A stretch of 64,000 bases of DNA, from positions 23,786,501-23,850,500 of the forward strand of contig NC_084766.1 in assembly GCF_028858725.1 (NCBI RefSeq), given 5' to 3'. The stretch is from Colius striatus (lineage: Eukaryota; Chordata; Aves; Coliiformes; Coliidae). The position numbers and the translations under genes were made by a program. Positions 32,201 through 54,969 of this stretch are shown piece by piece (the stretch's first letter is position 1; each line of letters opens with the position of its first letter). Under the pieces are notes generated by a model. The model was not told the origin of the DNA, did no database searches, and was given only the letters and a program-made list of their open reading frames with translations.

Positions 32201-35200
32201 CTGCGATGCTTCATGCCTTACCCGCAGTCTGTGCATGCAGTGCTCAGCATGCACTACACTCTGCAGAGGGACAGACCTCACCCACAGGCAAGAAGGACAC
32301 GGGGAGGCAATCATGAGGGCAGTTTTGACCTGGTGTGTCTCATTCCCTGCAGGAGACCTGGTGGTCCTGGGAGGATCCTTGGACTCCAGCTGGCTCCAGG
32401 GCCGAAGCAGCTGGGGTTCCAAGGGCTTTTTCCCCTCATCATGTGTGCGGGAGCTGTGCCTTTCAGTTCGGAGCCATCAGCTGTCTCAGAGTGCTCTCCT
32501 GGAGGTGCCTGCCTACTCACTGGGTCAAGCCCGGGCCCTGATGGACTTGTCTGCTCAGCTAGAGGAAGAACTGGACTTCAGGGAAGGAGATGTGATCAAC
32601 ATTGTTAGTGTCCCAGAGCCTGGCTGGTTTGAAGGCGAGCTCAGAGGCCACAGGGGCATCTTCCCAGAGGGTTTTGTGGAACTGCTTACACCTCTGCGAG
32701 CATCAGGAACCTCAGTGAGTTCAGAGCCTACAGGGCCTTGTGACACCAATGGCACAGTGGAGGTGCCCCCCAAGGAGGAAGAGGAGCCAGGGAGCACTTA
32801 TGGTGTCGCCCTCTATCAGTTCCAAGCCCTAGAGTCCAAGGAACTGGATTTTGATGTGGGTGATAGGATTCGAATCATAGGCATTCTGGAGGATGGCTGG
32901 CTGGAGGGGGAGCTGAGGGGGAAACGTGGCATCTTTCCACACAGATTTGTGAGGCTGGAAGACTCTGAGGCTTGCATGAAAAAGGAGAGTGCAGTGGATC
33001 TCCAAGGTGGAGGCAGCTGGGGAGTGTCCATCCATCAAGACCCAGAAAGCACCTGCTCCAAAGTCCATCCTCTGCCAGGGAAAGATGACAGGGAAGAGGA
33101 AGATGGCTCAGCTGTACACCCTGAGCCTCCCACCATTTTCTCTGACAGAGTGGGGAAGTCAGAGAGCCCTCTTGGCACTGACTTGAGACAGCATCAGGCC
33201 TTTCCAAGCACAGAACACCAAGAGCCACATCCCAAAGGCACAGCAGACTCACTCCCCTTGGACCACATTATGACGGTGAATGGCCTTCACCCCTCTGCTC
33301 AGCTGCCTCCCCAGTGGGGCAACAGGCCTGGCCAGGCAGGTGAGTTGGTGCCTGAGGGGGCCATTTCAGCCTCCCCAGGAAACTCAGAAACTCACACGCT
33401 GCCTGAGCACAATGGAGACGGTCCCACCGTGCTTCCACAGGCTCCCCACTCTTCCCCAGATCCTTGCAGGAGCAAGGCAGTTTCTTCTCCTGACAGCTGG
33501 GCAGCATCTGAGTCCCAGGAGTGCCACAGCAGCATCCAGGACCTAGATGATGGGATGGACAGTCAACAGGAGAAGTCCAAACCCTGTTTCTCCAGCTTGG
33601 GAGGTGTCCAAGTGGGCCTGGACACATGGGCTGGGAGCTGGGGGGAGTGCTGCCAGCTTGCATCGCAGGGGGATGGCAGCACAGACATTGACTCCAAACT
33701 GACAGAGCAGCTGGCACAGTTTGAAAAGAGTCTGTCAAGTACCAGTGCTGAGCAGGATAAAGTCTCCCGTCACTTCTCTATCTTGGACTACAGCTCTGAG
33801 AAAGACATTGTCCGTGGGTCTCCAGAGTGTGCCCCTCAAGCCAGGCAGCCAGAGAGGCGGAAGGCCCTGAGGCCACCACCTCCTCGGCCAGGCAGCCTTG
33901 CCACAGCCTCTGTGCACAGGCTGGCTGGCCATGTGCCCAAGGGCAGGTTTCTGTCCTCAGTCAAGCCATCCCGGCCTGCACCACGGCCTCCATCCAGCAA
34001 CCAGCGCAAAAATGTGGCCCCTACGCAGCTTCAGCCCAGCACACAGGAGCAGCGGGCGGAGGAGGGGCTCGAGGACTTGACACGGGCAGGATCGGTTTCC
34101 CCCCACTCTATCCTGCTGACGAGGATCAGAGAAGTGGAACGAGACCTGGAGGCGTACGGCAAGACCCACGCTGAGCTAAGCCTAATGCTGGAGGAGCAGC
34201 AGGATGAGCTGGTGAGAGCAGAGACCCTGGAAAACCTTGATTTCTGTGACTCCAATATCGAGAGCCTCAGCATGGAGCTGCAGGAGCTGAGAGGTGAGAT
34301 TGCAGCAGCGTGGGATGGGCGTGTTTCAAGGAGACAGCTGACCCCTGCTGCCAGCAGACATTGTTTGATCTAGTCTTTTCTTTCCTTCTTTAATCCCTGA
34401 TTTTGGTCCTTTTGTAAGCATTGCAGTACAAATCACGATGATTTTGCTTCAGAGAATTAGTGTCATTCTCTGGACATATCCCATGACCCTCCGTCCTGGC
34501 CTTCTCTGCCCCCTTTTCCTTCCATTTCTTTTTCCTCCTAAGTCCTCTTCCATTCCCACCATACATCCAGAGCCTTCATCTGATCCATTCCCAATGTGTC
34601 CTTGCTTTCAAACAAAACCACAGCTGCTGCATATTCAACCTCACCACTTCTTAGCTGTAGGGGAGTGAGCAGCAGAGTGGCTTTGCTGGTGGTCCTGCAG
34701 TTGAGATTTGAGTTGATGTCTCTGGCTTGACTGCCCTCAGGCTTTCAGGGCACTGGGTTTCCTGCACGTTCTTCTCTGTTGGTGATACAGACCTCTGGGG
34801 ACTTGTCACTCATATCAGAAGGAATGCTTGAAAGGTGCTGAACCTGGCCCAGCAGTGGGATGGATTAGTGGCCAAAAAGTCAAGTGTCTCCCTGTGCTCG
34901 TGCTGTCTGTGGAGTTCAGGATAGGAAATGGCACTATGCTGTCAGTAACAGCAACAAAAACCTTTAAATTTTGGCATGTCTGTAGCTTGAAAAGGTGACT
35001 TTTACCCATGCAGGCCAGAAAAATTACTCAGAGAGGAGAAATTTGCCATGATTGTACCAGCACAAAGATGCCATATAAAGATCAGTGCTGTTAATTACAT
35101 TGCGCTTGATATTACAATAGACAACGTGGAAAGACCAGACCACGTTCATCTCCCATAGTCCCTTTCCCAGCTTCTCCCAGGAGCTCTGACACTGCAGTTC

Positions 35201-38200
35201 TGTTCCCAAAACCCACGATGTGCAGGAAATGTGGGCACTACACGCAGGAGTTGGAGTGAAATGCCAACTCCTGCCTGGGGATTACTCACTCTGACTTCAT
35301 TGCCTCCATCCTCCCACTGCTTAATCAGCGCAAGGGAGCCCAGGCACGTTGCTGCAGGATCATGTCTCATGCAGAGCGCAGGGAAATGCAGGTTGGTAGG
35401 AGAGTGCCAGGGAAACAGGGTGACAGACAGCCTCCATGTCAGCAGTGTACCAGAGGGGTGCTTGGAAAAGGCTTAGAGGATTTGAGGCTAGATGAAATAA
35501 CTTGAAGGTAGGAAAAGGAAAATCTAGGCTGGATCTCAAGGGAGATTTTCTGATGGCATGAGTCTTGCTGGGAAATGTCTCCTACTCTCCCAGGGCTTCC
35601 TAACAGAGGGCAGATATGGCAGAAACTGTGCCCTGTTGGTTACTGCAACTGGAAGATTTAGGCAGGAACTAACACACTATCCTGAGGCATCCTAGCCATC
35701 AAGTTACCCACTTGGTAATCCTAGGGGATGACTTTTCACCACTTCAAGAGACCTGAGGATTTATATGTAGCCTCTCTATGATAAGTAGCCTGATAAAGAT
35801 GTGCCCTACCCAAGCTCTGTCCCATCCCTCCTGACACATCTGAGTGTGGCCAGAGAGCGTGTCTCAAGCTTGCCAGCCCAGCTTTAGTACAGGGGGACAG
35901 ATCAGTAATGCACTATTGCATCAGCTCTGTAAATCATGTTTGCACCGTGCCTTGGGCCTGCCTTAGCCTTGCACCGTGAGGTGCACATGGAGACATGCTG
36001 GAGGGAGAAAAGCTTCCCCTAAGTATTGACTGGCAACCAAAGTAGGGCTTGAGATGGAACTCAGCCTCTTGGTATGTCCCTTGGGGAGCCAAAGGAGGAG
36101 CAGAAAGTACATGGTCTTCTAAAATATGCATTTAAAATCTCCAGGTTACTAGTTTGGTGTGCCATGTGTGCACACTGTTGGTTTCGCCGATCACCAGACT
36201 TGGGCAGGGTTAGTGCTTGCCCTCCTGCAGTTGGAGTAGGAGGCACCATTGGTTTTATTTTTGTCTTCCACCAGCTGGAAGCATTGGCTGTGCAGACCTA
36301 ACAAATGTTAGAAGAATCTGAGACGTGGATGGCAGTCACCAACTCTCCTGATTTCTGTCTAGCACCAACTCTCCTGATTTCTGTCTAGTGTATGTTGTGG
36401 TTGGCTTTTGGTTTCTCATAGGAGCTCCTACATTTGGCGTGGAAAACTGAAATAGATTGTGCCCTGCAGCAAAAGCAGTTACCGGAGTGCATGTTTCTAT
36501 AGCCTCCTGGAAACTCAGATTGTGTTGGCACTGGACTCCATAGCCCAAGTGGTGCCTTCAGGCCTGTTCCTGTCAGCAGGTGCACCAGCCGTTCTCGCTG
36601 GAGCAGGGAGCTGGGCAGCTGTGGCTGCATGGCACTGTGTAGTCACTGCTCAGGAATGCTCTGTCACACAGGGACCTGCTTCTCTCCTGTTCTTCACAGG
36701 ACCTGTGGGTGAGGGCTGGGAAAAAGGTGGGTTCAGCATCAGGTTTGAGCCAGGGACAGCCTGAAGGCCTCAGTTTCCCCCATTGAGGTGTGGAGCAGAG
36801 CCCAGCCTCTGCTAGACCATGTAATTTAGCCCCCATGCTGGCATGAGCGTGAAGGCAGTGGAAGGAGATCCGATATCCCATCTCTGGTTTGTGGCTTCCC
36901 AACAGTCCCACACACCATCGATTTCCCTTCCCTGAGGACGTTGGTCTCGGGCAGGGCCTCCACATGCACCAGTGCCCTTCTTTTCGCTGCCTCTGAGACG
37001 CCCGGGGAGAGGCTTTGGCAAAGCAGCGGAGCCGGTTTGGGCGGTGAGAGCGCAGCTCCAGTCTCCCTCCTCGGGCTGGTTACTGATTACTTTGGGCAGC
37101 AGGTGGAGGAGGCCGCCAGGGCTCTCAGCGATTGGGCCTGCTCTTCTCAGTGCCCTAGCTGGCTGGTTTCAGGAAGCCACGCCTGTGTTTCACTTGGGAT
37201 AGGAGCAGTAGAGCAGAGCAGAAGAGCGGCGTCAGCGCGGGCTTGGGCTGGGGGAGCAGATAGCAGAGGGAGTCAGCACCTGCTCTACACCCCAGCGGGA
37301 CTATGTGCTCTTACGCCAGGACCAAACACAGTGCGAAGGAGCCGAGGCTCCGAGGCTGGGAATATGAGGACTGTTGTGCTGTGTGGAGAGAGGAGGTGGC
37401 TGGGGCAGCTGCACTGCGCGGTGAGGCTCGCTGCTATGATGGACCCAGGGCGAGGAGGCAGGACCCACGCTGCCGTGGAGCTGGTTACAGGAGTGAGGAG
37501 GGCATCTCTGCGGATCAACGGAGCATGAACGGAGACTGGGAAGGTTTTTGGAAAGGAGATATCCAGTATGTGGACTGCAGGAGAGAGGACAGTGCTTGGG
37601 AAAACAAAAGCTGGAATACAGAGGGTAGAAACTTTAGGGTGTATGAGAGGGAGGGCGTTCAACATAGAGACTGCAGTTCCGAGATAAGAGAAGGGCGGTA
37701 CAGAGAGGACAGAGTACCTGGGCAGTATCGGGATAGGAGAAGGCAGTATGGAGAGAATACAGGCCCTGGAGGCTATAGGGAGGGGGGAAGGCAGTATCAG
37801 GAGGACAGAAATTCTAGGGACTACAGTGAGGATGACAGATGTTATGGGGAAAAGGAAAGGTGGTATAGGCAGGAGAGGGACTCTGGGGACTACAGGGAGG
37901 GGAGTAGGCGGTATAGAGAGGATGGAGGCAATCAAATACACAGGGGAAGGGAAAAGTTGTATAGAGAGAATGGAGACTCTAGGGTACATAGAGAGCAGGA
38001 AAAGTGGTATGTAGGTGTCAGGGACCAAGAAGACTTTGAGCGGCATAGGCAGCCCAAAGACCATGCTGTGATTAACAGTTATTTGGGCAGAGCTCGTGAA
38101 GCTCCTGCATTTGCAGTCTGGTCCTCAGAAAATGGTAGAGCGCGCCAGGGGCCAGACAGCTGTTACACACAGTCTAAGATGCAAGATGTGGACTGCAATG

Positions 38201-41200
38201 GTCACGGAGAGCTGCAAGGAGCGGCCCCGGGGCCAGGGATGCCAACAGAGCGCTCGAGGGTCCGCACGGGCCGGCCGGACTGGAGCCAGGCCTGGGAACA
38301 GGAAGCCGAGGAAGCCGACAGGGTGGGCTCCGTGCTGCAGCGGAACAGCTTCTACCGACGGACGGCACCCAGCACCCTGCGGCACTCAGAGTTTGTGCAA
38401 ACCAGGAAGGAGAAGCGAGGTACCTGGGGAAATGCTGGGTCGTTGCCTCAGGGCCTGCCTTCCCCTTGCCCGGACACCAGGGCAGTAATGGAGCTCTGGC
38501 ACAGGCAGGTGCCCAAGCATAGATGGGCATCATCATTGTTACCCCTCTGTACAGTGAACTACATGTCCTGCTAGGGCTCTTGCCTCTATTTTGCAGAGGC
38601 CCAGGTGGGAAGGAAGCCCAGGCAGCAAGGATCTGCAGCTCACTGCCATCTTCACTCCTCCATCTGTGGCCCAAGTGTTCTGGGTACACCCTAAAACCTG
38701 TGGCACCGATTTGTCTGCTCTTTCAGTGTTCTAAAAAAGTTTTTTTATAGGGGAAAGGGTGAGATGTTGGGTTTATTCACATTGCCTATTTTACTTTCAT
38801 AACCCATCATGAACAGATTCGGTGTGTAGGAACCAGTTCCTGACCCTGAGGAGGGTAAGCATGGCAGCTGTTGGCAGGCCGCACAAAGCAACAAATAGGG
38901 AAAGTCTTTGTAGCACTCAGACATATGTAGGGGGCAAGTATTTGTAGTTGCATGATTCCACGTGGGCAGACACTGGGCCACCTACATGTTGTGGGGGCTG
39001 TTGCAGATGAGAGTAGTATCTGCTGCATCACCAGCCCCTCAGTACTGCAGTGCCAATGGTACAGCAGTTACATGACCTGTGTCCTCAAGCCATCCCTGAG
39101 TCTCCAATCTCATCAACTGGCATCTTGGAACTGGAGAGATACCAAAGCTGGAGGACTCAGGCTGTCTTAGCATGGGCAGAATTGTCCCATTGATACTGTG
39201 GCTAGGACAGAGTCAGCTGCAGACAACTTTGAGGGGGCTTGGTTTGTTTTTGCAAGAATTGGTGTGTGCTGAAGAAGTGGTGGTGAGGAGGGGGCAGAGG
39301 ATGGTAGGGTCTGGGCAGAGAGACCAAAAGAGCCCTTTTTGGTGGACTGGTTTCCTTAATGGGCAGCCATATGTCTGAAAACCTGTTTGCTTCTGCACTC
39401 ATTCTGCCAGCGTCTGTCTCAGGCACTTGTGTGAACTCTCCCTGAGGGGGGGTAAACAGCACCACAGTGCAGCAGCCAAAAAGGTGCCAGAACTGGAGGC
39501 TGCAGCTGCCTATTGGATTAAACAGTGTGAAATCTGTCTCCTGGAGGTACTTGATTAAGCAGGCTCTGGCAGCTGCATTTCTGCACTCTCTGGCCACACT
39601 GGGAGGGTGGGACTTTGCTCGGCTGTTGTCTCCCAGGCGAGGGAAGGGAGAGGCTTTGCAGTGCCAGGACGTCCAAAGGGCAGTGCAGAAGCGAGGAGGA
39701 GCGAGAGAGGGAAACGACCCACAAAGCTTTAGCAGGCTGGAGCAGTGCTGGCCTGGCCAGCTTTTGCAAGAGTTGAGGGGACGGACTGATGTCAGTTGAG
39801 AGCTGGGAGGAGGTGATGGATCTTTTTTTTTCCCCCCACTGTGGCAGTCTCGGGAGCAGGGGAGCAGCTACAGGATGGGCAGGGCCAGGGTCTTGCAGCA
39901 GGAGAGGAGGATGGAGGCTCCAGGTATTTTGTAACACTGTCTATCCTGTGGCCTGTTTCTGGCTGCAGTTCCCTGTGCCTTTACTCCTGCGCTGGTGGGA
40001 CACAGTGCTGCACCAGCAACAGCCCTCCTTGGCAAAATACACTTTGTTGCCATAGTGGCCTCAATGTAAGGCCTCACCCACACCAGCACCTCTTTGCTGT
40101 CTCAGTGTAAGACCTCACCTGCATGTGAGAGCCTCCCCAAAACCCTCCCATCACACTGGGCAGCACACACTCTGTCACATGGATGATAAGAAAAAGTTGG
40201 CCTTTCCCTCTGTGTATGCTCCAGGCACCTTTTTAGTGCTGTCTGCTTCTCTCCCAGGTTCTTGCTCCTGTCCACAGAGTAACAGAACTTAATATTTGAA
40301 AGCCCCAGTAGAGATGAGATGGTCTTGTCTATAAGCAGGGTTATTATACTTTGTACAGATTTCTCTGCAGTGTAGCCCAATGTCAGCTGTTTGGTTAGCG
40401 CATCTCCTCTGGGATGAGACTCAGATGTGTCTGCCTGCCTCATCAACAGAAGGAGAATCCACCTGTCAGAGCTTCACTGCTTAGTCACCGCCACTCTTAA
40501 AGGTTTTGCATGCTAATGTGTTGCATTTCAGCTCTAAACACCAACCTTTTTGTACTAAATTAGAGCTTTTTAGTTGTTGGATGTTCTTCTGAGGCAGGTA
40601 CTACAATTAAGTATTTTTTCAGTCTTCATTTCTTTGTAGTGGATAGAGTCTGAAAATATTCGTGGCAAAGATTCACAGGAAGATCTTTCATTGTTTATTC
40701 TTCCTGATGCTCACTCATTTTTCAGTTCAGACTCTTAAAATAATGGATATCAGAGCTGCATGAGGCATTCTGGGTGGGTGTCAGCACTTAACACTCCAAT
40801 CTGCCTCTACAGCGCTCAGGGAACTCCTGCTGAGCTTTGGCAGACCAAGCAGAAGCATTACTCCCCAGAATACAGCCCTATGGGTGCCTGCATTTCTTGT
40901 CACCGTTCATACATTTCACTGCATTAAACCTGCTTGGTTTGAATAATTCCATTTTATTCAGGATACCTTGGGTCACTCCGTGACTCATACGCCTCATCTT
41001 TATTTGTGTTGAATTAATGTTCAGTTCTCTACATGACAGCAGTGATTTTCCATTTACTTTAAAAATACTGTGTAGGATCAACTCCAAATATACTCCCTGG
41101 AGAACCTGATTAGGAATGCCCTCTGTTCTGGATATTCTCTGCTAGCAAAGGGGTTTTGAGGTACCAGTTAGCATGGTCTTATTTTTGCTTTTTAGACAGA

Positions 41201-44200
41201 AAGAAACAGAATATTTATTGTCTATTTCTTCCTTTTTGCCAAACTTACCAAAAATTTTACTCTCTCTCTGCTTACTTGTGTACATCATTGAGAGGGTTTC
41301 TTTTGTCCTGGATGGAAATAAAAGTATTATAAAGTAGCATTTCCCCAAATTGTACCATCCATGGATTTTTATTGATACCTTTCTGGTCTCATTTTTCCGT
41401 GCTTCAGAGTTCCTGGTGTGTCTGTTGTCTGTTATCTGCATTTTCTATGTTAATTAATTTGTATTTGCGACCTTTATTGAAGCAGAGACCTGGGACAGAT
41501 TTTGCACCAACATTGTCCTCTTGATTGCATAGCCATGTTTTTTTGATTATCTGATTAAACCATCCAGCTTCACTCTTTTTTTCCATTAGTGTTTCTGCTC
41601 ACACTTCTGTTGATGCTCTGCCTCAGCTTTAGGTTAGCTCTTTGTACACCATCATATTTCTTCACTTTTTCTTTGCATCACAGGCTGGGACCATCCTCTG
41701 TTCACATTAAATGCAGTGGGGCTATGTTCATGTCTGGATAACCACTGCCTGTTTGGGGTAATGGTTGTAATTTTACCTGGCATAGAGACAACCCCACCAA
41801 GCAGGCTCTTCATCAGACATCTTTGAGACATTAAGCTGTTTCATGGCCCTGGAGAAGTGTCTCCATTCTGTTATTTTTCATCTCATTTTTCTGGCTTGCC
41901 TCGATTTATCTCCTGCTGCATGGTCTCGGGGCTCTACCACAGCTGATTTCACTTCTGTGGACTGAAGTCTTCTTTTGCTATGGCACCTCTCTTTTGCATC
42001 CCCTCTGTTGCATTTGGAGCAGTGGATATATTCTGTTACAGGCTTATTTCCAACGTCCTGAGTGAGAGTTTTCACCCCAGCCAGATCCTGCTCCTGGCAG
42101 CAAGTTTAGCCTTTCACTCAGTTTAATTATTCCCTGCCCTAGTTTCGTCCCCTCTCTTCTCATGGTAGTCAGTGGCTCCTCCCCTCCTGGCGTCCACATA
42201 CTTCAAATATTTGCAGCTGGTTTGTTTTGTCCTGAGTCACTGCTTGACTCTGCTGAGCTGTGAGCCTGGGGCTGGGCTCCCCTGGCTCCTGTCGGAGATA
42301 CATCGGAGATACCTAGGCCTCAGCGCTGGTGGGCAGCAGGTCCCTCTGCAGTTGGCGTGAGCAGCCTGGGTGCCCTGCGAGGCTGTGCCGTGCCGTGCCA
42401 CGGGGGATGGTGCCAGGTGAGCTCTGACAAGGCAGAGCTGGGGACAATGCAGCCGTTTGGGTGAGCCCCCAGCCTGTACACGATGGGCACGCACCCCGTT
42501 TGATCTGGATCTTCATGGGTCTGCTCTGCTTCCAGAGTGGGGCAGGGAGAAAACCTCTGTTGGCATGTGTGCTCCTACTAGGAGGTTGGGCAATTAGAAC
42601 TTTTTGGTGATTAGAGAAAGTCAATGATGGTGGCATTTCTTTGATGAGCAGAATGATCCATGTCATTGCAATATGAAATCAAGGCCTCCACAGGAAGGGC
42701 AGAGGTGGCAGCGTTCTCCATCTTGATACCTCACTGCCAGGGGCTGGATTATGAGTCGGTGTTGAATCTCCCATGCATCAGCAAAACTCGAAAATGGGTG
42801 CTGCTGAGAGACTGTCACAGACCATCAAACTGATCCAGAGAGGCAAAGAGACTTGTTGCAAATTTGCCAAAGGCGATAGAGAAAACAATGTTGTTAGAGG
42901 ATTTAATTTAGAGTGGCAGATTACAGAGCTCATGCAACCTACAAGAGGACAAAATTTGAGTCTCTGAAAATTGTGATTGAGAACATTGTTTTTGGAAGTT
43001 TATTTCTAAATAGCCGTTTGGCATCACACAAATTTGTAACTGGATTGGAATTTGGTAGCTTCATTAGAAATACCAGTCGCATTCCCGCAGACTAACAGAG
43101 CCTCTTCCAGCTGTGGTTTACCTCTCAGTGCTTCCAAAGCTGATGAGCATGATGGCTCAGATTGAAAGGTAACATTTAAATAGAAAATCTGTGAAGTAAA
43201 GTGGAGATCTGTTAAAAAAGCTGTGAAATGGGTGGGTTTAGTTAAATGCTTAATAAGCCTCATTTAGAAAAAGCTGCTATTAGACACACGAGGATGTGTG
43301 ACAAACAGGGAAAAGGAAATTGATGGCAGTCAGCAGAGATAGTACGAAATGCAAAAGTGGGGGGTTTAAAATGCATCAGAATCAAACCCTAAGTATTATA
43401 TGTATTGGTCAGATGGAAGAGACAAATGTTGAAAACAAATGCTGTATTTGAGTTTTTTGAACTGTGAGTGTTTGGAAAGGGGCAGAACAACTTTTGAGTT
43501 CTTTGCTGAAGGAGGATGCCAGACTGATGATAAACAACAAGAGTCCTAAGAGACCTGGCTGCAACATAGCCTTGTTTTTAAACAAATCTTGGAATACTCA
43601 GAAAGAGTAAGAAGGGCAGAGGAGAATTAATCTGTATAAGTTTACAAAATCATGCAAACACCGATACAGTATAAGTGGGTAGAACTGGTGGCCAGCATTG
43701 TGCCAGGTCAAGCAAGCTGACTACTATGGGCTTAAAACCTGTGCAGGGAAGGGATTAAGTTCACTTCCACAGATGGGGATTTGAGACTTGCAGAGGAGGA
43801 GTGTCGTGGAGCTGGCAATCTCACAAATGTCAGTAGAATCGTTGTCGCAGGGCACTCTCGGAAAGGGCCTGACCTAGATTTACTGCCCTGGGGTTTACTT
43901 GGTGGAACGTGGGGAGTTGCTGCATTTGTTGGAAACACAGGGCATCTCCAGCTCTGTTTCAGTGAGCTGGAGATAGACACATCATGTGGCTGCAGCTTAG
44001 CTATGGCTAAAGCTGGAAGCACAGCAAGGTTGTTTGGTGGTACTCCCAAGGTGTTCTGTACAAAACTTCATCTGCTGGCATTTTGCCTGGGGATAAATGC
44101 AAAATCCTGTTCTTTGACCAAGGCAAATATAGTCTTTTCCATTTTAATTCCCCAATGCTGTTGCATGGGTGATTTCTGTATCTTATTCTGGCTGGTCTTC

Positions 44201-47200
44201 ATTTAAAAGATTCTTCCCTAGCTAGCCCATGCCACACTATCAGCTCACTTGGCCACCTCACCTGAGTTTCACACAGCTGTTTGCATCTCAAATTAACACC
44301 TTCCTACTTCCTGCTATTTCTTTAAAGTAACTCATTTATTATTATTTTCTTAACTCTTCGAGCTGCAGAGACCTGCTTGGTGTTTCCTGTATATTTTACT
44401 GTCTTGAGTCCTGTTCAGGCTCTAAGCACTGTGTCTCAGGAATGATGTCCCTGTAGGGTGTTTGCTCAGCAAGGCCTGGTCTGCTTCCGAGCGCTGTGCA
44501 AAAGCAAACAGCAAATGTTAAGCCCTTCCTTGCAGACTCCTGCTGCATCTGAGTTAATGAAGTTCATCACTGGGGACTTCCCTAGCTGAAGTAAGTCTTT
44601 TGCCCAGTGCAAGGTGGCTGTGGTGGGGATAGTTTTAAGGACTCTTGACAGTAGGAATTGGTGAAGCCTGCTCTTTAAATGTAGTGCTGATTGTGACACT
44701 AAATCCTCCTCTGTGGAGCTGGCTCTTTTGGTACTCCGCAGACTTGATTTCAAGGTAGGGCAGCAGAGGTGCCTGCTTAGAGAAATGGGTATCTTCCCTC
44801 CCATGTCGAGGGCATCTTCTGAACAGGGTTTTAGGTGGGTTTCCCAATTGCTGTGGTGGAGGGAGTGTCTGGAACTGATTTGGAAGTGTGTGCAAGAGGC
44901 ACATCAGTTCTAGTGCCCAGGTAGCTGTGGGAAGTTGCTGCTTGATGCCAATGGTGTTGGTTTCTGTTTGTCACTGCTGCCCTGCAGTGGGAAGGGCTGG
45001 AAACTGACATGCTTTCAGGTAGTTATGGTCCATGTCTCTGTTTCTTCTCTTTCCTGTGCTGTTTCAGTGTAAATATTTGAGCCTGGAAGCAGTAGCAGGA
45101 CGCTTAGGCTGAGGTAGCTGTTTCCCATCCCATTCACACTGCTGCTGGTTACTGCCGTCACTCACCACTGCCTGTCAGGGCGAGGCTGGAGGCAGGGGAC
45201 AATGGAAGCAAGGCCTGCCCCGTACCTGGGCAGAAGCAGCTGGGAGCACGGTTACCAGGATAAGTCCCAAGCCCTGCTGGGTGTCCCCAGGAGTCCCTCA
45301 GGTTGAGCCGCTGTTGCCCGGGGCTGTAACTGGAGAGGCCGGGGAGGTGGGGAACTGGAAGTGCCTGTCCTGCAAGAATATTTTTACAAATGTCTGAGCT
45401 GGGGCATGCCCACAACTGTAATAAAGTCCCTTCGAGAGAGACAGCAGCTGGGGCTCCGTGGGAGACACGGATAGAGCGGATGGGCATCTATCAAATCGGC
45501 AGCTGGCCTTAGCTCAGGTAGGCTGGGTGCTGCCAGTGCCCCGTGGCCTCAGTTCTGCCAAGCAGTCAGAGAATGGGGGAGGCCCGAGTGTTCCTGGCCC
45601 TGCCCTGCTTGGAGCGGTGTCCCGGGGAGGTGTTGCAGAGGGGCTTTCCTGAATTTGGGATGAGGGTGGAGGGTGTGGTACCGTGATACTGTGTGTTGCC
45701 GTGGTTCTGGCCAGAGGGCGCATGCTTTTAAAAGCAGGCAGGTGGGGCAGAAAATGGCTGGGGCCCCGGAATGTGCTGGGGGATAAAATGTCTCAATGAA
45801 AACGGGAGGGGGCTGGGCTAGCCCGGGCGCCGCAGGTGGGACAGAAAACCAGGAGGCGAAGCGGCCGCCGGGGGCTGGGCCAGGAGAGCGGCAGGGCGGC
45901 CGTGCCGTGCGCCCCGCAGCCTGCCGCGGTGGGCTCGGGACGGAGGCAGCGGCGGGACGGCAGCCTGGGCGCACAGCAGGGCCCAGGGCGGTGCCGGGGG
46001 CTGTGCAGCCGCGGGTTGCTCGCCATGAGAGCGGAGCCGTCCGTGGGGCTGCATCCGGCTCCCCGGCCTTCGCCTGGCCCGGCCCCTGCGCTGCTCGCCG
46101 CCCCGGCCTGACTTCCCTGGCCCGGCCCGGGCAGGAGCCCCTAGCCGCGGTCCAGCTCCAGGCTTTGCCGCCGGCAGCCCCATTGTGAGTGCCCGAGGCC
46201 TTTTCGGCCATTCAGATGGAAATGCCCCCGGGCTGGAGAATAGAAACCCTGTCCCAGCCCGAGGGAAAGAGGTGGCCGCCATTGCCCGTCCGGGAAGAGG
46301 GCAAGGAGAGCAGCGGGGCTCCTCTCCATCTCTGCTCAGCCTCACCGAGTTCCCTGGAGCGGCAGAGTTGGAGAGTGGGGGTAGGAGAGGGGTCTGGACC
46401 CGGCCGGCATCAGTGGGGACAGTCTGAAGCAGGTTTGGTTGCTTGGTGCCCTTTGCCCAAAGGGGTGTGATGATGGGACACCACAGGTTACTGCTGGGAG
46501 CAGACCAGGGCTCCCTGCTGCCCTGGAGAGATAGGGAAGGCATCTGGAGGATGTTAATCTTACTTGTCTGTCTTGCAGAGATGACTCTCCTGTCCTCCCA
46601 GACACCGTCCTTGGAGCCATCCTCAGCTGCCACTGAGAGCCCAGAGCAAAGAATGCTGGAGAAAAGATCAAAGGTTATTGAGGAACTGCTTCAGACAGAG
46701 CGGGACTATATCCGAGACCTGGAGATGTGTGTGGAGAAGATCATGGTGCCCCTGCAGCAGACACAGGTATGAGCGTGAGGGCAATGTATGGTGCAGCACT
46801 GGTGGGATGCAGTGAGGATACTGAGTTTTTTAGATTTTGAGGTTTCTTAGCAGCAGCACAGGAACCCAAAGGGGAAAGTCAGCTACACTGGGGGGAGCAG
46901 GGTGGTTCTTCCTGCTCCCTGCATTCATAGAAATATTCTACCTGTTTTGGAATCTTGCTGAGCTCTCACTGTTGCTGAAAGCAAGAGATCTGGCATCAAG
47001 TATCACATTCATTTCCTGGAGCATTTCCTTTTCATTGAGTTCGTAGGTTAAATTCATTGTCAGGAGAAAGAAAATGTGTGCTGTTGGTGGGAGGACAGAG
47101 TTGGTGGGAGGGGAGGGAGGACATCAAGTGAACAGAGACAGGGATGAAATTGCTGGAAAAGAGGAGGACACTGGTAGACACATAAAGAGCGAGAGTTTCA

Positions 47201-50200
47201 GTGCACTGGAAGATGACAACAGAGTGAGTACAGAAGTCGTTGTGATGGGAGGAAGTAGCACTGGGTGGCTGCTGTGGAGCTGCAGGCAGATAGTTTGCAG
47301 GAGGGCAAGGGGAGACTGTTGGCTCTGTCTGGGACATTTTTCCCCATCCATCTCTCTTCCCATTCCCCAGATGCAGAGTATAGACTTTGAGGGTCTTTTT
47401 GGAAACATCCACATGGTAATTAGCTTCTCCAAACAGCTGCTGTCCACTTTGGAGACTTCAGATGCCATTGGTATGAATTCTGCTGTTACCTTTTCTCATC
47501 AGGCTGGGATGGGCTTTGCTAGTGGTGGAGCAGAACAGAGTAGTTACAATGGCAAGAGACTGTCATTGGGGTTGGGCTTCCTCTCTGCTGATTCTTGTCA
47601 ATCATCAGTCTAGCAGCGAAGCCAAGGAGCCTTGTTGCCCTAAGGGTTGCTGTGTTGAGAAACACTGTGCTTGTGGCCCTCCCTAGCCCCAAAGAGAGCC
47701 CCACTGCTCACTGTTGTGCTGCCAGCTTTTGCCTCTTAGGCAGCCTGTGGCCTTGCTCTCCATGTGACTCCCCACCCACACTGCCACTCACCAGTGTCTC
47801 CTTTCCGCACCTCTGGTAGAGCTGGATCAATTGAGGTCTCTGGGCAGAGCCACCTAGGGCCTCTTTGTGTGAGTAAATCGTCCCCTCAAGGCACGGTGAG
47901 ATTTCATGACGTGGCCTTGGCTTCAGCCTGAGGCCTCCTTCCCTTGACACACCTTTGGTGCACAGCTTTCCATTTCTGTCCCCCTGGCCTACAGCAACTG
48001 GAAAGCAGGAAAGATATGTGGCCATGCTGAGGATGACAAGGCATCCTTGTTGCTCTAGAAACACTGTCCTCTCAAGCTGTATGTGGGAAACGGGGATAGT
48101 GGATGTCTCATTGTGAGACTTGCCAGGATTGTTGAAGGCAGCTGGAGACCAGGACACACTGAAGTCTGCTTTACTGCTGTCTGCAGGACCAGTGTTCCTG
48201 GCACAGCGTGCAGAGCTGGAGAGCGTGTACAGGGTGTATTGCCAGAACCATGATGAGGCCATCACACTTCTGGAAGCCTATGAGAAGGATGAGAAGATAC
48301 AGAAATTACTCCTGGATCTGCTGGATAGCCTCAGGTTTGAATCTTTCCTGTGGTGGCCACCAGGCTGGAGTTAGGGGGTGTTCAGTCTCCAACATCCCTT
48401 CCCCTCTGCCAGCAGTGCTTGAGCAGTTCCAGTGGTGACTGAACAGAGGCTGCCTGTGTCACAGCATAGTTGGCCAGGCTCTGGGTTCAGAAGGTCCCCT
48501 GCCCCCATGCCCCTTAAGCCACAGAGAAGGTGGCATGTCTTGAATTGGGAGCTTCTGTTCCTCAAGCCCTGCCCCACCTTGGCCGGTGAGGAAGGAGCCA
48601 CTTTGCCTGGCTGTGTGACTGCCAGGGCTCCAGCTTGGGGACTTGAATGCCCTGGGAGCCATCAGCACCAGCTGCTACTGGGGAGGGGGATAAGGGCTGC
48701 CCACCACCTTACTCTGGCAGCATCCCTGCAGGAGGGAAGGGAGGGGTGCTGGCCCCGGGACTGCACGCCTGCCACCCCATTAACCCGTTGCTCTTCTTTG
48801 CTTTTTGGCACTCTGTGGGCCGTCAGGAGCCTGTACAGTGAGTGGTAAGTGCATCTTTCCCTGTTAGTCCCTGCTTGTCCATCTGGGCTGGCCTGGCTGC
48901 TCCCTTGTAACTAACCTCCCACCACTGGCTGGGTGCATGTTGGGGGGCCCTCAGGAGCAGAGGCAGAGCTGAGAGGAGCAGGGTGTCAGTGGCATGATGG
49001 CAGCAGAGGCAATGGATGGGCTACACAGGCAGGCAGCACAGGCAGGTCAGGAGGTGAGGGGAGGGGAAGTCTTGGGTAGGGAACAAATATTGGGGACCCA
49101 TAATCCCAAGGAGCCGGGAAAGCCCATGCCAGCTGCAGTACTGCAGTCAGTCCGTCCTGCAGTGAGGCTCAGATATGAGCAAAGAGGTGATGGGACAGGA
49201 TCTGAGGCAAGTGGTACTTTGGTAAGTTTGTGGCTGTGCCTGTGTGGATTTTGCAGTGGATCTGGTGATGAAGAGGATCTTGGCCGGGAAGGGTCACTTG
49301 GTGTGAGGTCTGGAGACCTGGGGTTGATATTGAAATCAGTGGGGGTTCAGGAGTACAGGGAGCTTGGAGAAGAGGGTGGTGTGACTGACTGACTTAGGGA
49401 GCACAGTGGATTTAGAGGCATTGGTATTCAGGATGTGGTTGGGATTGGTTTGAGGGGGCAAGACTTGCATGGTAGAGCCATACGGAAACCTGGTGCGTCT
49501 CCTTTGTCCCGCCTTCCCAGGGGCTGCACAAACTACATTAACCTGGGCTCCTTCCTCATCAAGCCGGTGCAGAGGGTGATGCGGTACCCACTGCTGCTGA
49601 TGGAGCTGCTGAGTGCCACCCCCGAGGCTCACCTTGACAAGGCACCGCTCACAGCCGCCGTCCTCGCCGTCAAAGAGATCAACGTCAACATCAACGAGTA
49701 CAAGCGCCGGAAGGACCTAGGTCAGTACCTGGGGCATGAGACACAGGAGTGGGTGTGTTGGGGTTGGTGTCTGTCAACTCCTGGGCCTTACCTGGCAACT
49801 ACAGTCTGGAGGGAATCTGCTCCCAAAGCCTGTGCCCTCATGGAAGGGCGGTAGAAGAGCTGCATTTAAAAAATGTGAACATGAGATACAGTACTTAAAT
49901 TGATGCAGTATACATCTGACTTCAGCTGTTTCTTGTGATACAGAGGTAAGAAATCTATGCAGTCACTGAACACATGGTTATTACATGAAAAAAAAAAAAG
50001 ACAAGTAGGAAATGAATATTCTTGGGCAGTCTCAGTCTTACTGAGATTTGGAGACTAAGTTTGAAGGTTTATCTGTAGAAGGGACAGAAATGCAGAGGCA
50101 GAGGCTGCAAGTGTGAGGTCTCCAGCCCAAGCTCCTGCTTGGAGTAGGATTGTCTCAAAAGCTATCTCTGATCAGATCGTTCTCACTGACCCCCAACAAT

Positions 50201-53200
50201 GGAGATGTCACAGTCTCTCTGCTGACATATGCCAGGGATGCACTACCTTTGAGATGAAGCTGTGCTTGCTGACCCATGCTGAAGCTCTCAAGCTGCAGGT
50301 GCTGGCCACCAGTGCCTGGCACTGGTGAGACCAATTGCACCCCACCACCTTTGTAGCTGCCCTTCAAGTGTCTGCAGTCTGTGAGCAGATCACCTTCCGC
50401 CTCCTCCCAGCCAGACTGAGCTCACCCAGCTCTCCCTGTGGGGCCTGAACTCTCCCTATGGGTCAGGAGCTCTGGTTCTCCCACATCTCTCTCGTCCTGG
50501 GAGCACCAAGACTGGACACAGTATCCAAGTGCAGCCTCCCCAGAACTGAAGAGAGGGAGAAAAACATTCCCTTTGATCCACCAGCCACTCTCCCTATGGT
50601 TCAGGAGCTCTGGTTCTCCCACATCTCTCTTGTCCTGGGAGCACCAAGACTGGACACAGTATCCAAGTGCAGCCTCCCCAGAACTGAAGAGAGGGAGAAA
50701 AACATTCCCTTTGATCCACCAGCCACTCTCCCTGTTTTCCCTTTGAAGCCCCTCACTCATGCAGTTCTTACACTTTACGCTTTCCACATTGTCCTACTAA
50801 AGCTGAAGTGATACAGGCTGCCTGTAATGATTGCTCCTATTTGCTGAAGAAGAAATATAAATACCTCCTTTGGGACTAGTGATTATTGTACACCATCTCC
50901 TGTGTCATGCTAGTGCTATGCATGATCCTACAGGGGAGTCTTGAGTGGTGGCTCTACAAACTGTAGGGCATCTTGAGAGCCAGATGGGAATTAGGTGGCG
51001 GTACCGTGATGGATTTAGGTATGGTATGGTGTATGGTATGGTGTATGGGATGAGATGAGATGAGATGAGATGAGATGAGATGAGATGAGATGAGATGAGA
51101 TGAGATGAGATGAGATACTTGGGACTGCAGAGGCTTAGGGAAAGGGAGAATCAGTAAGGCAGTTGTTGACAGGCACTGTAAGACATGGTCATTGTGCTGA
51201 CAAGGGTTCTGATTTCCACATCAAATTCTTTAGTGCTGAAGTACCGGAAGGGGGATGAGGATAGCCTCATGGAGAAGATCTCCAAGCTCAATTTCCACTC
51301 TATCATCAAGAAATCCAACCGTGTGAGCAGCCACCTCAAGCAACTGACGGGCTTTGCACCCCAGGTAACGTGCATAAGCTGCCAGGTACACTTACACCCC
51401 ACCTGTGGTGACATCTGCTGTGCCCCCCACACCCCTTCCCCAGTGAGTAGCTCTGAGCCCGGCCAGCAGGGCACAGTGAGTTTAAGGTCCAAACCACAAC
51501 TCTGCTGTCCAGCTTGTGGGCAGGAAGCCCCCATCTCACACTCTGGGAGGTGCTGAAGTCCTGCATTACCTCCCCTGAGGCACTTTCTCTCACAGATGAA
51601 GGATGAAGCCTTTGAAGAGACAGAGAAGAATTTCCGGATGCAGGAGCGGCTGATCAAGTCCTTCATCCGGGACCTTTCCCTATACCTGCAGCACGTCCGG
51701 GTGAGTCAGTCTGGGCTGATGCCTTAACCACAGGGCTCTCCCTGCACTGCCCCTCCTGCCTGCACAGTGTGTACCTGCAGTGCCTCTGGCTAGTGCTCCT
51801 GCCCTCAGCCCTGCTGAAGGGAATGGTCTCGGAGGGTCTGGGCTGCCCTGGGAGACCTCTCCTGGGCAGCAACCGTGGCTGTGCTGACTCTGTGTCCCTG
51901 GTGCAGGAGTCAGCGTGCATGAAGGCACTGGCAGCAGTGAGCATGTGGGATCTGTGCACTGAGAAGGGCAGTGAAGACTTGGGCGAGTTCCAGAAAGTGA
52001 ATCGGCTCATCAGTGACCAGCTGTTCTCTGACTTTGTGAGTGAGGCTGTGCTCTCGTGCTGGGGGCACCCCACTGGGAACCTCCCTGCTGCAGGGGGGCA
52101 GCCCCTGAGAGGCTGCAGGGGGGATAGCACAACCTGACAGAGGTGTGAGCACTCCTGTTCAGCTCTTGTCTCCTGAAAGCTTTATGCCTGTGGGTTTATG
52201 ATGTGTGTTGAACATGCCTGTTAGATACTTTTTCAGCCCTACCTGAAATGTTACAGCTCTGTATGGGAGGTACTTCCCATGTTGTATGTTCAGGTACTTC
52301 CCATACTGTTGCCTACACTGGCACATTTATAGAATCGTAGAATCATTTCAATTGGAAAAGACCTTTAAGATATCAAATCCAACTCCTCACCTCACTATGA
52401 TGCCAAGCCCATCACTAACCCATGGCCCTCAGCACCTCAGCTATGTCTTTTAAATATCTCCAGGGATGGGGACTCCATCAACTCCCTGGACAACCCGTGC
52501 CAGTGCTTAACAACCTTCTCGGTGAAAAAGCTCTTCCTCATCTCCAATCTAAACCTCCCCAAGTGTTAGATTATAACATTTGTATTGGAAGGGACCCATG
52601 GAGCTCTGGTGGGTGTCATCAGGAAGGTGCCCACTGTGCTGTCCCAGGGAGGTTGTATGCAAGGAGGGTAAGCTGTTGGTGTTCACTGCACGCTGGGAGA
52701 GAGCAACTTGTCTCAGCTGCTCTCTGCATGTCTGCCCACCAGAAAGAGCGGACGGAGCGGCTGGTCAGCTCGCCCCTGAACCAGCTGCTCAGCATGTTTG
52801 CGGGGCCCCACAAGCTGGTGCAGAAGCGCTTTGACAAGCTCCTCGACTTCCACAACTGCACGGAGCGAGCGGAGAAGCTGAAGGACAAGCGAACGCTGGA
52901 GGAGCTGCAGTCAGCCCGCAACAACTACGAGGCTCTCAACGCCCAGCTGCTGGACGAGCTGCCGCAGTTCCTGCGCTTGGCCAAGGAGCTCTTTGCGGGC
53001 TGCGTGCGTGGCTACGCCGAGGCACACTGTGACTTTGTGCGCCGGGCCCTGGAGGAGCTGAGGCCCCTATTGTCGGTGAGTTCCTGGAGCACAGCTCAGC
53101 TTAGTGCTCATCTCTCTGCAGGGCTTGCCCGTGAGCCTTTCTGGGACCCATCCCCTTGAGGGGCAGATTCAGGCCCTGAGTGCCTTGGGGAGGGCTCTCG

Positions 53201-54969
53201 TTAGGGCAGAGATTGCAGGGTCACAATGCAACTGGGTGTAGAGATAGTGAAGGCTCAGGCTGCTCCAGAAACAGTGGCAGATGAGCATTGCCTGGGAGAA
53301 TATCAAGTTGTGAGTTTGGGAACTGCTTCGAGCTGGGTCCAGACAGGACTGCATATCTAGGACTAGTGCAGGTCACAGGCAAGACTTAGATCCCTGCTCG
53401 GCCCAGGAGCTGGCTTGGTCTCTGATGGAGCTGTTGGCTGTTTTTCCCAGCAGCTGTCACTTAACTATGACCTGCAACTCTGCTCTGGTTCCAGTTGCTG
53501 AAGGTGTCTGGCAGGGAAGGAAACCTCATTGCCATCTTCCAGGATGAGCACAGTCGAGTCCTTCAGCAGCTCCAGGCCTTCACCTTCTTCCCTGAGTCCC
53601 AGGCAGCTCCCAAGAAGCCTTTTGAGAGGAAGAACGTGGAGCGTCAGTCTGCCCGGCGGCAGCCCCTCATCGGCTTGGTGAGTCCTCTGAGCCCTGTGCC
53701 AGGGCTTTCTGTGCCCAGGGCCTGGGCTGAACCTGCCCTGTTCCCCCACAGCCCAGCTACCTCCTGCAGTCGGACGACACCCGAGCCACCCTCCTGGCCC
53801 GCTATCCCCCAGACAGCCTCTTCCAAGCAGACCGCAATTTCAATGCTGCCCAAGATCTGGATGTCTCGCTGCTGGAGGGAGACCTCGTGGGTGTCATCAA
53901 GAGGAAGGACCCCATGGGCAGCCAGAATCGCTGGCTCATAGACAATGGGGGTAGGTGGCTGCTCATGGTTGCCTGCCGTGAGGCCTCTCATCTACTCACC
54001 TTGTGCCACAGTCTGAGCTACCTTCCTCTCCTTTGCAGTGACCAAGGGCTTTGTGTACAGCTCCTTTCTGAAGCCCTACAACCCACGCCGCAGCCAGTCG
54101 GACGTCTCTGTGGGCAGCCACTCTTCCAACGACTCAGAGCACAACAGCTCCTCTCCCCAAAGCAACTCCACACTGACCTTCAGCCCCGGCGGTGCGGCTG
54201 TCACCTTCACTCAGAAGCCACCGCAGGACTCACTGGCTGACCCGCAGCAGTCCCCGCAGCCCCCCTCAGAGGTGGACTCTCCGTCTCTGCCCCTGCGTGG
54301 CTCTGGTGACAAGATGGCCATGCCGGAGTGGCTGCGGCGCTGCGGCCGCCCTGAGCTGGGCAGCAGTCCCGGCTCCCGCAGCGGGCAGCCCGCCAAGGCA
54401 CGGTCCCGGCCCACGCCCGCCGAGGACAGGGATTCTGGGCTGGAGAGCGGCGAGTCAGAGGGCAACCAGGTGAGCCTCAGCCTCCCCTTGCTGAGGTGGG
54501 GCTGGATCTTCCTCCTCCCTGGCAGTGATCAGGGAGAGGTGATAAGTAGAGGCTGCTTTGTCTCAAAGGGCTGAGGCGGAGAATGAGACCCTTTCTCCCA
54601 GCAGCAGCAGTGCAGAGACAGAGAACTAGGCTGAAAGAAGGGGCAAGTCTGGCTGAAGCTAAGATAGGGATGACGCTGCGGCTGTCCCTGGGGAGAGGAG
54701 CAAAAGCCCACACATGCTGTGCAATGTGAGAGCGAGGCCGTGTGGCATGACAGTCCAACTGACGCTCTTCCTTTGTCCCGCAGGTCTATTATGCTCTGTA
54801 CACCTTCAAAGGCCGAAACGCCAACGAGCTGAGCGTGTCAGCTAACCAGAGACTCAGGATCCTGCAGTTTGAGGATGTCATGGGCAATCGGGAGTGGTGG
54901 CTGGCCGAGGCACACGGGAAGCAGGGCTACGTGCCCTCCAGTTACATCCGGAAGACAGAGTACACGTGA
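29221..54969 (+). CDS. DNMBP: Dynamin-binding protein (Tuba), Cdc42 exchange factor, complete, sixteen coding exons
   Basis: Coding exons are 29221-29365, 31701-31823, 32353-34293, 46579-46766, 47371-47470, 48187-48334, 48827-48844, 49521-49720, 51234-51364, 51596-51700, 51907-52035, 52743-53075, 53495-53677, 53752-53950, 54039-54469 and 54784-54969. All are GT-AG and in phase, giving 1,519 residues (human 1,577). The ATG has A at -3 and G at +4. Domains in order are four SH3 domains (about 3-60, 66-127, 146-203, 238-293), a long low-complexity region with proline-rich motifs, a predicted coiled coil before residue 736, a DH/RhoGEF domain (about 766-949), a BAR domain (about 990-1199) and two C-terminal SH3 domains (about 1270-1332 and 1459-1519). 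The family binds dynamin through the N-terminal SH3s and N-WASP/Ena-VASP through the last SH3. It activates Cdc42 at cell junctions. The unstructured part is somewhat shorter than in human. Nothing is broken. Confidence 0.95.
32353..34293 (+). CDS. DNMBP: Large DNMBP exon: end of SH3-2, SH3-3, SH3-4, linker, coiled coil
   Basis: This 1,941-bp exon carries 43% of the full-length coding sequence. It starts inside the second SH3 domain (the GDLVVL strand) and holds SH3-3 (ALMDLSAQ...[11 protein letters not shown]) and SH3-4 (ALYQFQAL...[10 protein letters not shown]). Its linker has the proline-rich stretches [13 protein letters not shown] and SRPAPRPP, then an acidic helix that looks like coiled coil. 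It ends in phase 1 at 34,293 before GTGAGA. The reading frame runs 80 bases past the donor to a stop at 34,373. The frame is also open 5' of the acceptor, and that part is intronic. Confidence 0.93.
34294..37300 (+). other. DNMBP intron, part upstream of the internal alternative exon
   Basis: No coding exon or clear transposon was recognised. The last 350 bases before 37,300 become G+C-richer and would be the promoter or 5' UTR of the transcript that uses the exon at 37,303. Confidence 0.4.
36337..36388. repeat. 26-bp exact tandem duplication
   Basis: The unit containing ACCAACTCTCCTGATTTC and ending in TGTCTAG occurs twice, 26 bases apart. It lies in a DNMBP intron and has no apparent function. 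Confidence 0.85.
37303..38419 (+). CDS. DNMBP: Probable alternative first coding exon of DNMBP with 16-residue repeats
   Basis: An ATG with A at -3 opens 372 codons plus one base and ends at AAGCGAG followed by GTACCT, a usable donor. The leftover single G is the same phase as the main upstream exon. Splicing to 46,579 therefore rebuilds the GAG codon (Glu-Met-Thr...) and continues into the RhoGEF domain. The product would be 1,155 residues without SH3 1-4. The segment is highly charged and has no hydrophobic core or known domain. Its middle is a 16-residue repeat with Tyr at position 1 and usually Arg-Glu near it. The last part ([18 protein letters not shown]) is not repetitive and reads like conserved coding sequence. 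A coding exon is supported by length, codon structure, donor and phase. Expression is inferred. Confidence 0.7.
37699..38007 (+). repeat. Coding 48-bp tandem repeat, six full units and one partial
   Basis: Taking Tyr as the first residue, the translated units run 16, 16, 16, 7, 16, 16 and 16 residues. Typical starts are YREDR, YGENT, YQEDR, YRQER, YREDG and YRENG. A second Tyr or His is common at position 10. The nucleotide units are diverged from one another but stay in frame throughout. The unit length is a multiple of three, so gain or loss of units would keep the frame. Confidence 0.8.
38420..45780 (+). other. DNMBP intron, part downstream of the alternative exon
   Basis: No coding exon was found. 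The stretch from about 40.5 to 43.7 kb is A+T-rich. The part around 40.88-41.45 kb has a faint resemblance to old LINE text (for example GGATCAACTCCAAATA), too weak to classify. The rest holds only short frames. Confidence 0.4.
45780..46190 (+). promoter_or_regulatory. Internal CpG island, likely promoter of the short DNMBP transcript
   Basis: A sharp, isolated CpG-rich block lies about 0.4-0.8 kb upstream of the first RhoGEF exon (46,579). A consensus donor, GTGAGT, lies at 46,185-46,190 and could end a noncoding first exon spliced to 46,579. Human DNMBP is known to have a shorter isoform that lacks the N-terminal SH3 region. The match of this island to that promoter is inferred. Confidence 0.55.
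46581..54969 (+). CDS. DNMBP: Short DNMBP isoform starting inside the RhoGEF exon (predicted)
   Basis: The third base of the exon at 46,579 begins an in-frame ATG (Met-Thr-Leu-Leu). A transcript started from the 45.8-46.2 kb CpG island could begin translation here and give 782 residues. These are the DH domain, the BAR domain and the two C-terminal SH3 domains, without the dynamin-binding SH3s. The exons are those of the full-length gene from 46,579 on. The start has A at -3 only if the upstream exon supplies it, so start strength cannot be judged. Confidence 0.45.
48827..48844 (+). CDS. DNMBP: 18-nucleotide DNMBP microexon in the DH domain
   Basis: The preceding exon ends in phase 2 (AG, 48,334) and the following exon begins GGGCTGC (49,521). 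The human protein needs SLYNEW between them. Bases 48,827-48,844 supply SLYSEW between a CGTCAG acceptor and GTAAGT donor, in phase on both sides. Skipping it would keep the frame and remove six residues from a DH-domain helix. Confidence 0.88.
50080..50745 (-). repeat. CR1 LINE fragment in DNMBP intron, internally duplicated
   Basis: The order of blocks follows the avian CR1 3' half in minus orientation. It includes AAGACTGGACACAGTATCCA and the following CATTCCCTTTGATCCACCAG. The copy is diverged at its left part. It contains a recent internal duplication (50,449-50,724). The left edge is uncertain. Confidence 0.65.
50449..50724. repeat. 138-bp tandem duplication inside a CR1 fragment
   Basis: Units 50,449-50,586 and 50,587-50,724 differ at only about two positions by eye. 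The duplication is therefore far younger than the CR1 insertion, whose sequence is diverged from the family. The third position after the array resembles only the first few bases of a unit. Confidence 0.93.
51051..51115 (+). repeat. Pentanucleotide microsatellite (TGAGA)13
   Basis: Thirteen perfect TGAGA units lie 118 bases upstream of the exon beginning at 51,234. A shorter GTATGG-type repeat precedes it (about 51,019-51,048). Such perfect arrays are usually length-polymorphic. Confidence 0.97.
52330..52565 (-). repeat. Avian CR1 LINE 3' end in DNMBP intron
   Basis: The sequence opens with AGAATCGTAGAATCATTT, the reverse complement of the 8-bp repeats that end CR1. It continues through GGAAAAGACCTTTAAGAT, CTCCAGGGATGGGGACTC and ATCTCCAATCTAAACCTCCC in the family order. 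The element is on the minus strand and truncated at about 235 bp. This is the least diverged CR1 in the window and the best sign that the host is a bird. Confidence 0.88.

Follow-up and report, generated by a model that had tools for sequence, protein, structure and literature searches.

In the window analysed here, a stretch of 64,000 nucleotides from Colius striatus (NC_084766.1, positions 23,786,501 to 23,850,500; coordinates below are those of the window), the gene is DNMBP (Tuba), which encodes a Cdc42 exchange factor with dynamin-binding N-terminal SH3 domains. An open reading frame at 37303-38419, inside the intron between exons 4 and 5, probably serves DNMBP as a genuine alternative first exon that codes for protein; it would join exon 5 in phase 1 and thereby specify a short Tuba without the N-terminal SH3 domains. 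Five directly observed properties carry this reading: the open frame, its coding signature, its phase, the intact frame downstream of it, and a precedent within the gene family.

The frame opens with an ATG at 37303 and runs through 372 stop-free codons, so that the exon of 1117 bases consists of 372 codons and one base. Measured from stop to stop, it extends over 37264-38574 (436 codons) and is second in length among 94 frames, after that of exon 4 (741). The exon frame contains no stop over 37303-38419; its two sense alternatives have 4 and 25, and the antisense frames have 6, 2 and 15. Up to 73% of the bases in individual windows are purines, and high purine content makes stops less frequent. 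A chance open frame in purine-rich sequence is nevertheless scarcely credible, since one of the alternative sense frames here has 25 stops and Markov models of orders 1-5 trained on the stretch reached 371 open codons in only 2 of 5,000 runs (1,000 per order). An antisense open frame of 279 codons also lies over the candidate exon stretch (37285-38124, minus strand).

The composition of the candidate exon as a whole is distinct from that of the intron. TESTCODE gives 0.857 for the candidate frame and 0.845 for a stretch of exon 4, while none of 220 equally long intron windows exceeds 0.535. With 1,397 DNMBP codons as training set, a codon score is 0.193 for the candidate and 0.074 for exon 4, which was left out of the training; the value of 0.193 lies above all 134 intron windows (maximum -0.111) and all 300 dinucleotide shuffles. 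When the region is scored in steps of 99 bases, frame 0 leads in 10 of the 11 steps that span 37300 to 38388, and in each of the 5 steps from 38488 to 38982 no frame has a positive score, all three being negative. Such a signal is not independent of openness, because stops are counted in the score. The ratio of observed to expected CpG (CpG o/e) is 0.24-0.60 over 36.8-38.6 kb, with its minimum in the repeats described below, and 0.21 or less elsewhere in 36.0-39.6 kb. Because both the coding signal and CpG fall past the donor, the 3' boundary is what would be expected if the exon ended at 38419 or close to it, and the exon is therefore taken as real coding sequence. This fall also bears on the idea of a separate nested gene or single-exon open reading frame that ends at its own stop at 38574. 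The frame does extend 51 codons beyond the 372, but the coding score is negative and CpG almost gone past the donor, and the frame has no Pfam or PDB relative, so that a nested gene is highly improbable.

Exon 4 ends at 34293 in the donor CTGAGAG/GTGAGA and leaves one base over, as read directly from the sequence, and exon 5 follows the acceptor ...CTTGCAG/AGATGACT at 46578/46579. Because the candidate exon also leaves one base over, both exons join exon 5 in the same phase, and exon 5 reads GAG ATG once spliced. The spliced model from 37303 comprises 13 exons and 3,468 bases, that is, 1,155 codons and a TGA, with GT and AG at all junctions. Its downstream 783 residues contain a RhoGEF (DH) domain (Pfam PF00621, 3.5e-37), a BAR domain downstream of it (PF03114, 1.8e-44) and one C-terminal SH3 stretch, which covers residues 726-777; Pfam does not call the penultimate SH3 at E 0.01. 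The human N-terminus used as a probe places SH3 exons at 29221-29370, at 31694-31831 and from 32352 onward; exon 4 has three SH3 stretches, and its best PDB match is titled dynamin-binding protein. Because the new start is downstream of all these exons, the N-terminal SH3 domains are lost from the model, while RhoGEF, BAR and the C-terminal SH3 are kept. An earlier note on this DNA had proposed a repeat-bearing 372-codon frame within a DNMBP intron of about 12 kb, in the right phase for the exon at 46,579, with a product of 1,155 residues lacking the N-terminal SH3 domains. The sequence, the open spliced model and the places of the SH3 exons bear out each of these points.

The exon would encode a head of about 125 residues and an array of 16-residue repeats rich in Tyr, Arg and Glu, which is followed by a tail about 120 residues long. 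The period stands out with a z of 6.8 at lag 16 against 300 shuffles of residues 121-255, and a profile of the repeat was made from the same eight units that it describes. The copies differ from their consensus by 29% of bases, which explains why Tandem Repeats Finder reported no array at 37675-38031. Y-x-[DE] occurs 12 times in the segment, against a shuffle mean of 3.84, and none of 2,000 shuffles is as high; the tyrosines beside acidic residues, for which kinases had been suggested earlier, are thus a real enrichment. YxxP, YxN and PxxP are not enriched in the segment. The charge-hydropathy measure is negative in all three parts and lowest in the repeats, and disorder is therefore predicted, most strongly for the repeats. 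At E values up to 10, the candidate segment matches no Pfam family and no PDB chain, and Rfam finds no match anywhere in the window at gathering thresholds.

The candidate exon was compared with the bird's own genome, over 1.21 Gb in 191 contigs. It is single-copy: among six candidates scored, the only match is the exon itself. The downstream 450 residues give 14 exon-sized matches, 8 of them in DNMBP and 4 and 2 in two paralogous loci, with no retrocopy among the 14. The exon has no pattern match in viral contigs; in prokaryote contigs there are 5 pattern matches, none of them confirmed by tblastn. The paralogous loci, on C4 and C11, are presumably ARHGEF38 and ARHGEF37. A first exon of the ARHGEF38-like locus was found with the human ARHGEF38 N-terminus (64.5% identity over 62 positions, in L019). 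It starts with ATG, contains 62 codons and one base, and ends in CAAG/GTACAG; the second coding exon (in L018) opens AA AAA ATG in phase 1, directly upstream of RhoGEF-like sequence. Like the candidate, ARHGEF38 would thus lead from a coding first exon into the homologous exon in phase 1 and then into DH, although this first exon is much shorter than the candidate (62 codons and one base versus 372 codons). At the level of sequence, the family thus offers a precedent for a form in which a coding first exon of its own leads into the DH exon.

Upstream of the ATG there is one GC box, at 37039; 36501-37303 contains no TATA-like motif and 37000-37302 contains no ATG. The best acceptor beside the ATG is at 37296 (11 of 16 pyrimidines) and is out of phase with exon 4. 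The scan covered AGs from 37264 to 37419, and the four in-phase AGs in this interval have 3, 5, 9 and 3 pyrimidines of 16. These acceptors are relevant to the possibility that the segment enters via an acceptor such as 37296 behind another exon, whether it serves as a cassette or follows a first exon that is non-coding. The acceptor at 37296, CTGCTCTACACCCCAG/CGGGACTATG, is a fair one and lies only 7 bases 5' of the ATG, but it gives the wrong frame from exon 4, and the in-phase AGs have weaker pyrimidine tracts. Cassette entry is disfavoured on these grounds, and entry by an acceptor is quite unlikely overall. Entry behind a non-coding exon is possible and would leave the protein unchanged.

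A number of observations weigh against a coding first exon at 37303-38419, and they concern its donor, its composition, its repeats, its promoter and its relatives. The donor AAGCGAG/GTACCT at 38419/38420 is without +4A and +5G and scores 0.18 bits by a position matrix, by which 12% of the 3,468 GTs scored in the window are equal or better; by the same matrix, the donor of exon 6 in the model reaches 0.41. The candidate donor had been described as usable, and its GT and its phase are confirmed. Three GTs within the frame outscore it, and one of them, at 37420 (TGCGCG/GTGAGGCT), is in phase 1, scores 4.06 versus 0.18 and would yield an exon of 39 codons and one base without the repeats. A shorter first exon, with the same ATG and the repeats left in the intron, would accordingly have the better donor in the same phase, and the first exon of ARHGEF38, with its 62 codons, is short too. 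However, the open frame and the coding signal run 333 codons beyond 37420 and stop near 38419, which makes the shorter exon very unlikely. As for relatives, homology of the candidate to the ARHGEF38 first exon was considered and rejected: in end-anchored comparison 2,545 of 5,000 shuffles are as high over 25 residues and 1,924 of 5,000 over 40, and in local alignment 1,638 of 2,000 are as high. Because the similarity of the two first exons is at shuffle level, common descent is not claimed.

As for composition, the exon 4 stretch scored by TESTCODE starts about 110 bases ahead of the first residue placed by the probe. The signature is uneven by parts. For the N-terminal third, the codon score does not exceed that of shuffled sequence (115 of 300 shuffles as high), and that of the C-terminal part is the highest of the three (0.414; 1 of 300 as high), whereas TESTCODE reverses this order, with 0.919 for the N-terminal third and 0.563 for the C-terminal part. 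The best antisense frame has a codon score of 0.138, which is likewise above the intron windows, and the codon score therefore separates the strands weakly; the longer frame, the ATG and the donor are all on the sense strand. The 5' boundary is blurred by another frame, which scores 0.38 at 37201-37299. The promoter is also contested by a stronger, independent CpG island at 45.4-46.5 kb (45401-46500; CpG o/e up to 0.73, GC content up to 0.75), which ends about 80 bases before exon 5 and, as a promoter of an SH3-poor form, is the better candidate. It could drive a start at the Met of exon 5, so that DNMBP without N-terminal SH3 domains would need no exon at 37 kb.

The ratio of nonsynonymous to synonymous differences (pN/pS) between repeat units, used as a stand-in for dN/dS among species, is 0.68 in the exon frame, but the remaining sense frames give 0.71 and 0.77 and the antisense frames 0.76-0.99, so that the ratio is not discriminating. 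Such divergence of the repeats without clear frame-specific constraint, together with the weak donor, would suit a fossil exon, that is, a formerly coding exon that has lost its transcription or splicing and has not yet gained a stop. Under neutral decay, however, the repeats acquire 3.9 stops on average and none in only 1.7% of 20,000 runs; a column-shuffle control on the repeat units is milder and is stop-free in 24%. The stop-free repeats are therefore modest evidence for coding. With the 436-codon frame intact and the codon signal lasting up to the donor, a fossil exon is unlikely.

If 37303-38419 is an alternative first exon, its transcription, its splicing and a role for the new segment may be pictured as follows. 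Transcription would start no more than a few hundred bases upstream of the ATG, where CpG is enriched from about 36.9 kb on. Translation would begin at the ATG at 37303, and splicing would join the exon to exon 5 in phase 1. Of the domains of Tuba, the product would keep DH, which carries Cdc42 exchange, as well as BAR and the C-terminal SH3 part, and the head, repeats and tail would replace the four N-terminal SH3 domains. Such an exchange factor would presumably be uncoupled from dynamin, and its BAR module may be aimed by a disordered, charge-balanced segment that could be phosphorylated on tyrosine. Most likely, the repeat segment would act as a disordered docking or clustering region that tyrosine kinases could tune. 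A more specific proposal is tentative and rather doubtful: an intronic DNMBP promoter may give rise to a second, dynamin-free and kinase-addressed Tuba, in which a fast-evolving Tyr/Arg/Glu repeat takes the place of the dynamin-binding SH3 array and aims the exchange factor and BAR domains by phosphotyrosine docking or condensation. The alternative N-terminus put forward in the earlier note thus holds in its coding nature, its phase, its 1,155 residues and its loss of SH3 domains, and the function of its tail is something that we infer. If the exon is transcribed, DNMBP would supply two exchange factors with a common catalytic and membrane-bending core and different addresses. Cdc42 activation by Tuba would then be separable from dynamin, and the short form would be unaffected by mutations in the upstream SH3 exons. 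A disordered repeat domain would have been grafted via an intronic promoter onto a conserved Rho regulator.

Table 1. Positions of the candidate exon, its parts and the associated DNMBP and paralogue features.
Feature	Position	Strand	Basis or remarks
Candidate exon (alternative coding first exon of DNMBP), 372 codons and one base	37303..38419	+	Open frame, TESTCODE 0.857, codon score 0.193, phase 1 donor
Putative 5' leader and promoter-proximal stretch	36980..37302	+	CpG o/e about 0.45-0.55 versus 0.21 or less below 36.8 kb
Eight units (two partial) of the 16-residue repeat, majority consensus DYRERERRYREDRDPG	37675..38031	+	Residues 125-243; periodicity, unit alignment, profile
Non-repetitive C-terminal part	38056..38419	+	Codon score 0.414; signal drops past the donor; TESTCODE 0.563
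5' splice donor GTACCT	38420..38425	+	Sequence; weak by position matrix, among the top 12% of GTs
Host intron of the candidate exon, from DNMBP exon 4 to exon 5	34294..46578	+	12.3 kb; donor and acceptor read directly
DNMBP exon 5, RhoGEF start, opens AG ATG	46579..46766	+	Pfam RhoGEF; phase 1 acceptor
11 DNMBP exons downstream of exon 5, up to the stop TGA	47371..54969	+	Spliced model open; Pfam RhoGEF, BAR, one SH3
Coding exons 1 and 2 of the ARHGEF38-like paralogue, own genome	L019:6939-7125, L018:7232-7422	minus	Phase 1 fit, GTACAG donor

Farther downstream, the DNMBP model requires the weak donor CCTGTG/GTGGCC (48335-48352) for a Trp-Gly-Cys-Thr-Asn junction, by comparison with the human protein; an alternative GT 18 bases upstream of it would remove six residues. 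A DNMBP intron contains a tandem repeat of 138 bp at 50449-50733 (2.1 copies, 98% matches), and a stretch near 52.3 kb is presumably CR1-like.

The long form of DNMBP shares with the candidate product all exons from 46579 on, and hence RhoGEF, BAR and the C-terminal SH3. It differs in having exon 4 and the earlier exons with the N-terminal SH3 domains, whereas the start of the candidate lies 3 kb inside the next intron and brings in a repeat domain without a match in Pfam or PDB. The candidate product has none of the four SH3 domains at the N-terminus of the long form, as is expected of a short form. The short human isoform of DNMBP (isoform 2, 823 residues) is also without these four domains; it starts at the Met that heads exon 5 and is not known to have a repeat domain.

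Among the papers listed in searches of open PMC text, titles and the beginnings of abstracts announce no DNMBP form with such a first exon. DNMBP appears in lists of isoform-switching genes in kidney tumour types (PMC8650491) and is named in other gene lists (PMC3562341, PMC8505629), mouse Dnmbp exon 1 is described as lower in trophoblast giant cells (PMC7409654), and the main text of PMC12569825 contains nothing on isoforms. ArhGEF37 is reported to have the layout RhoGEF-BAR-SH3-SH3 without an N-terminal SH3 and to take part in clathrin-mediated endocytosis; its recruitment to late endocytic sites reportedly depends on BAR, and DYN2 was not found in its pull-downs (PMC6526708). This layout, as described there, is without a repeat segment, unlike the candidate product. 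Given the reported recruitment of ArhGEF37, a RhoGEF-BAR-SH3 layout without N-terminal SH3 domains can work.

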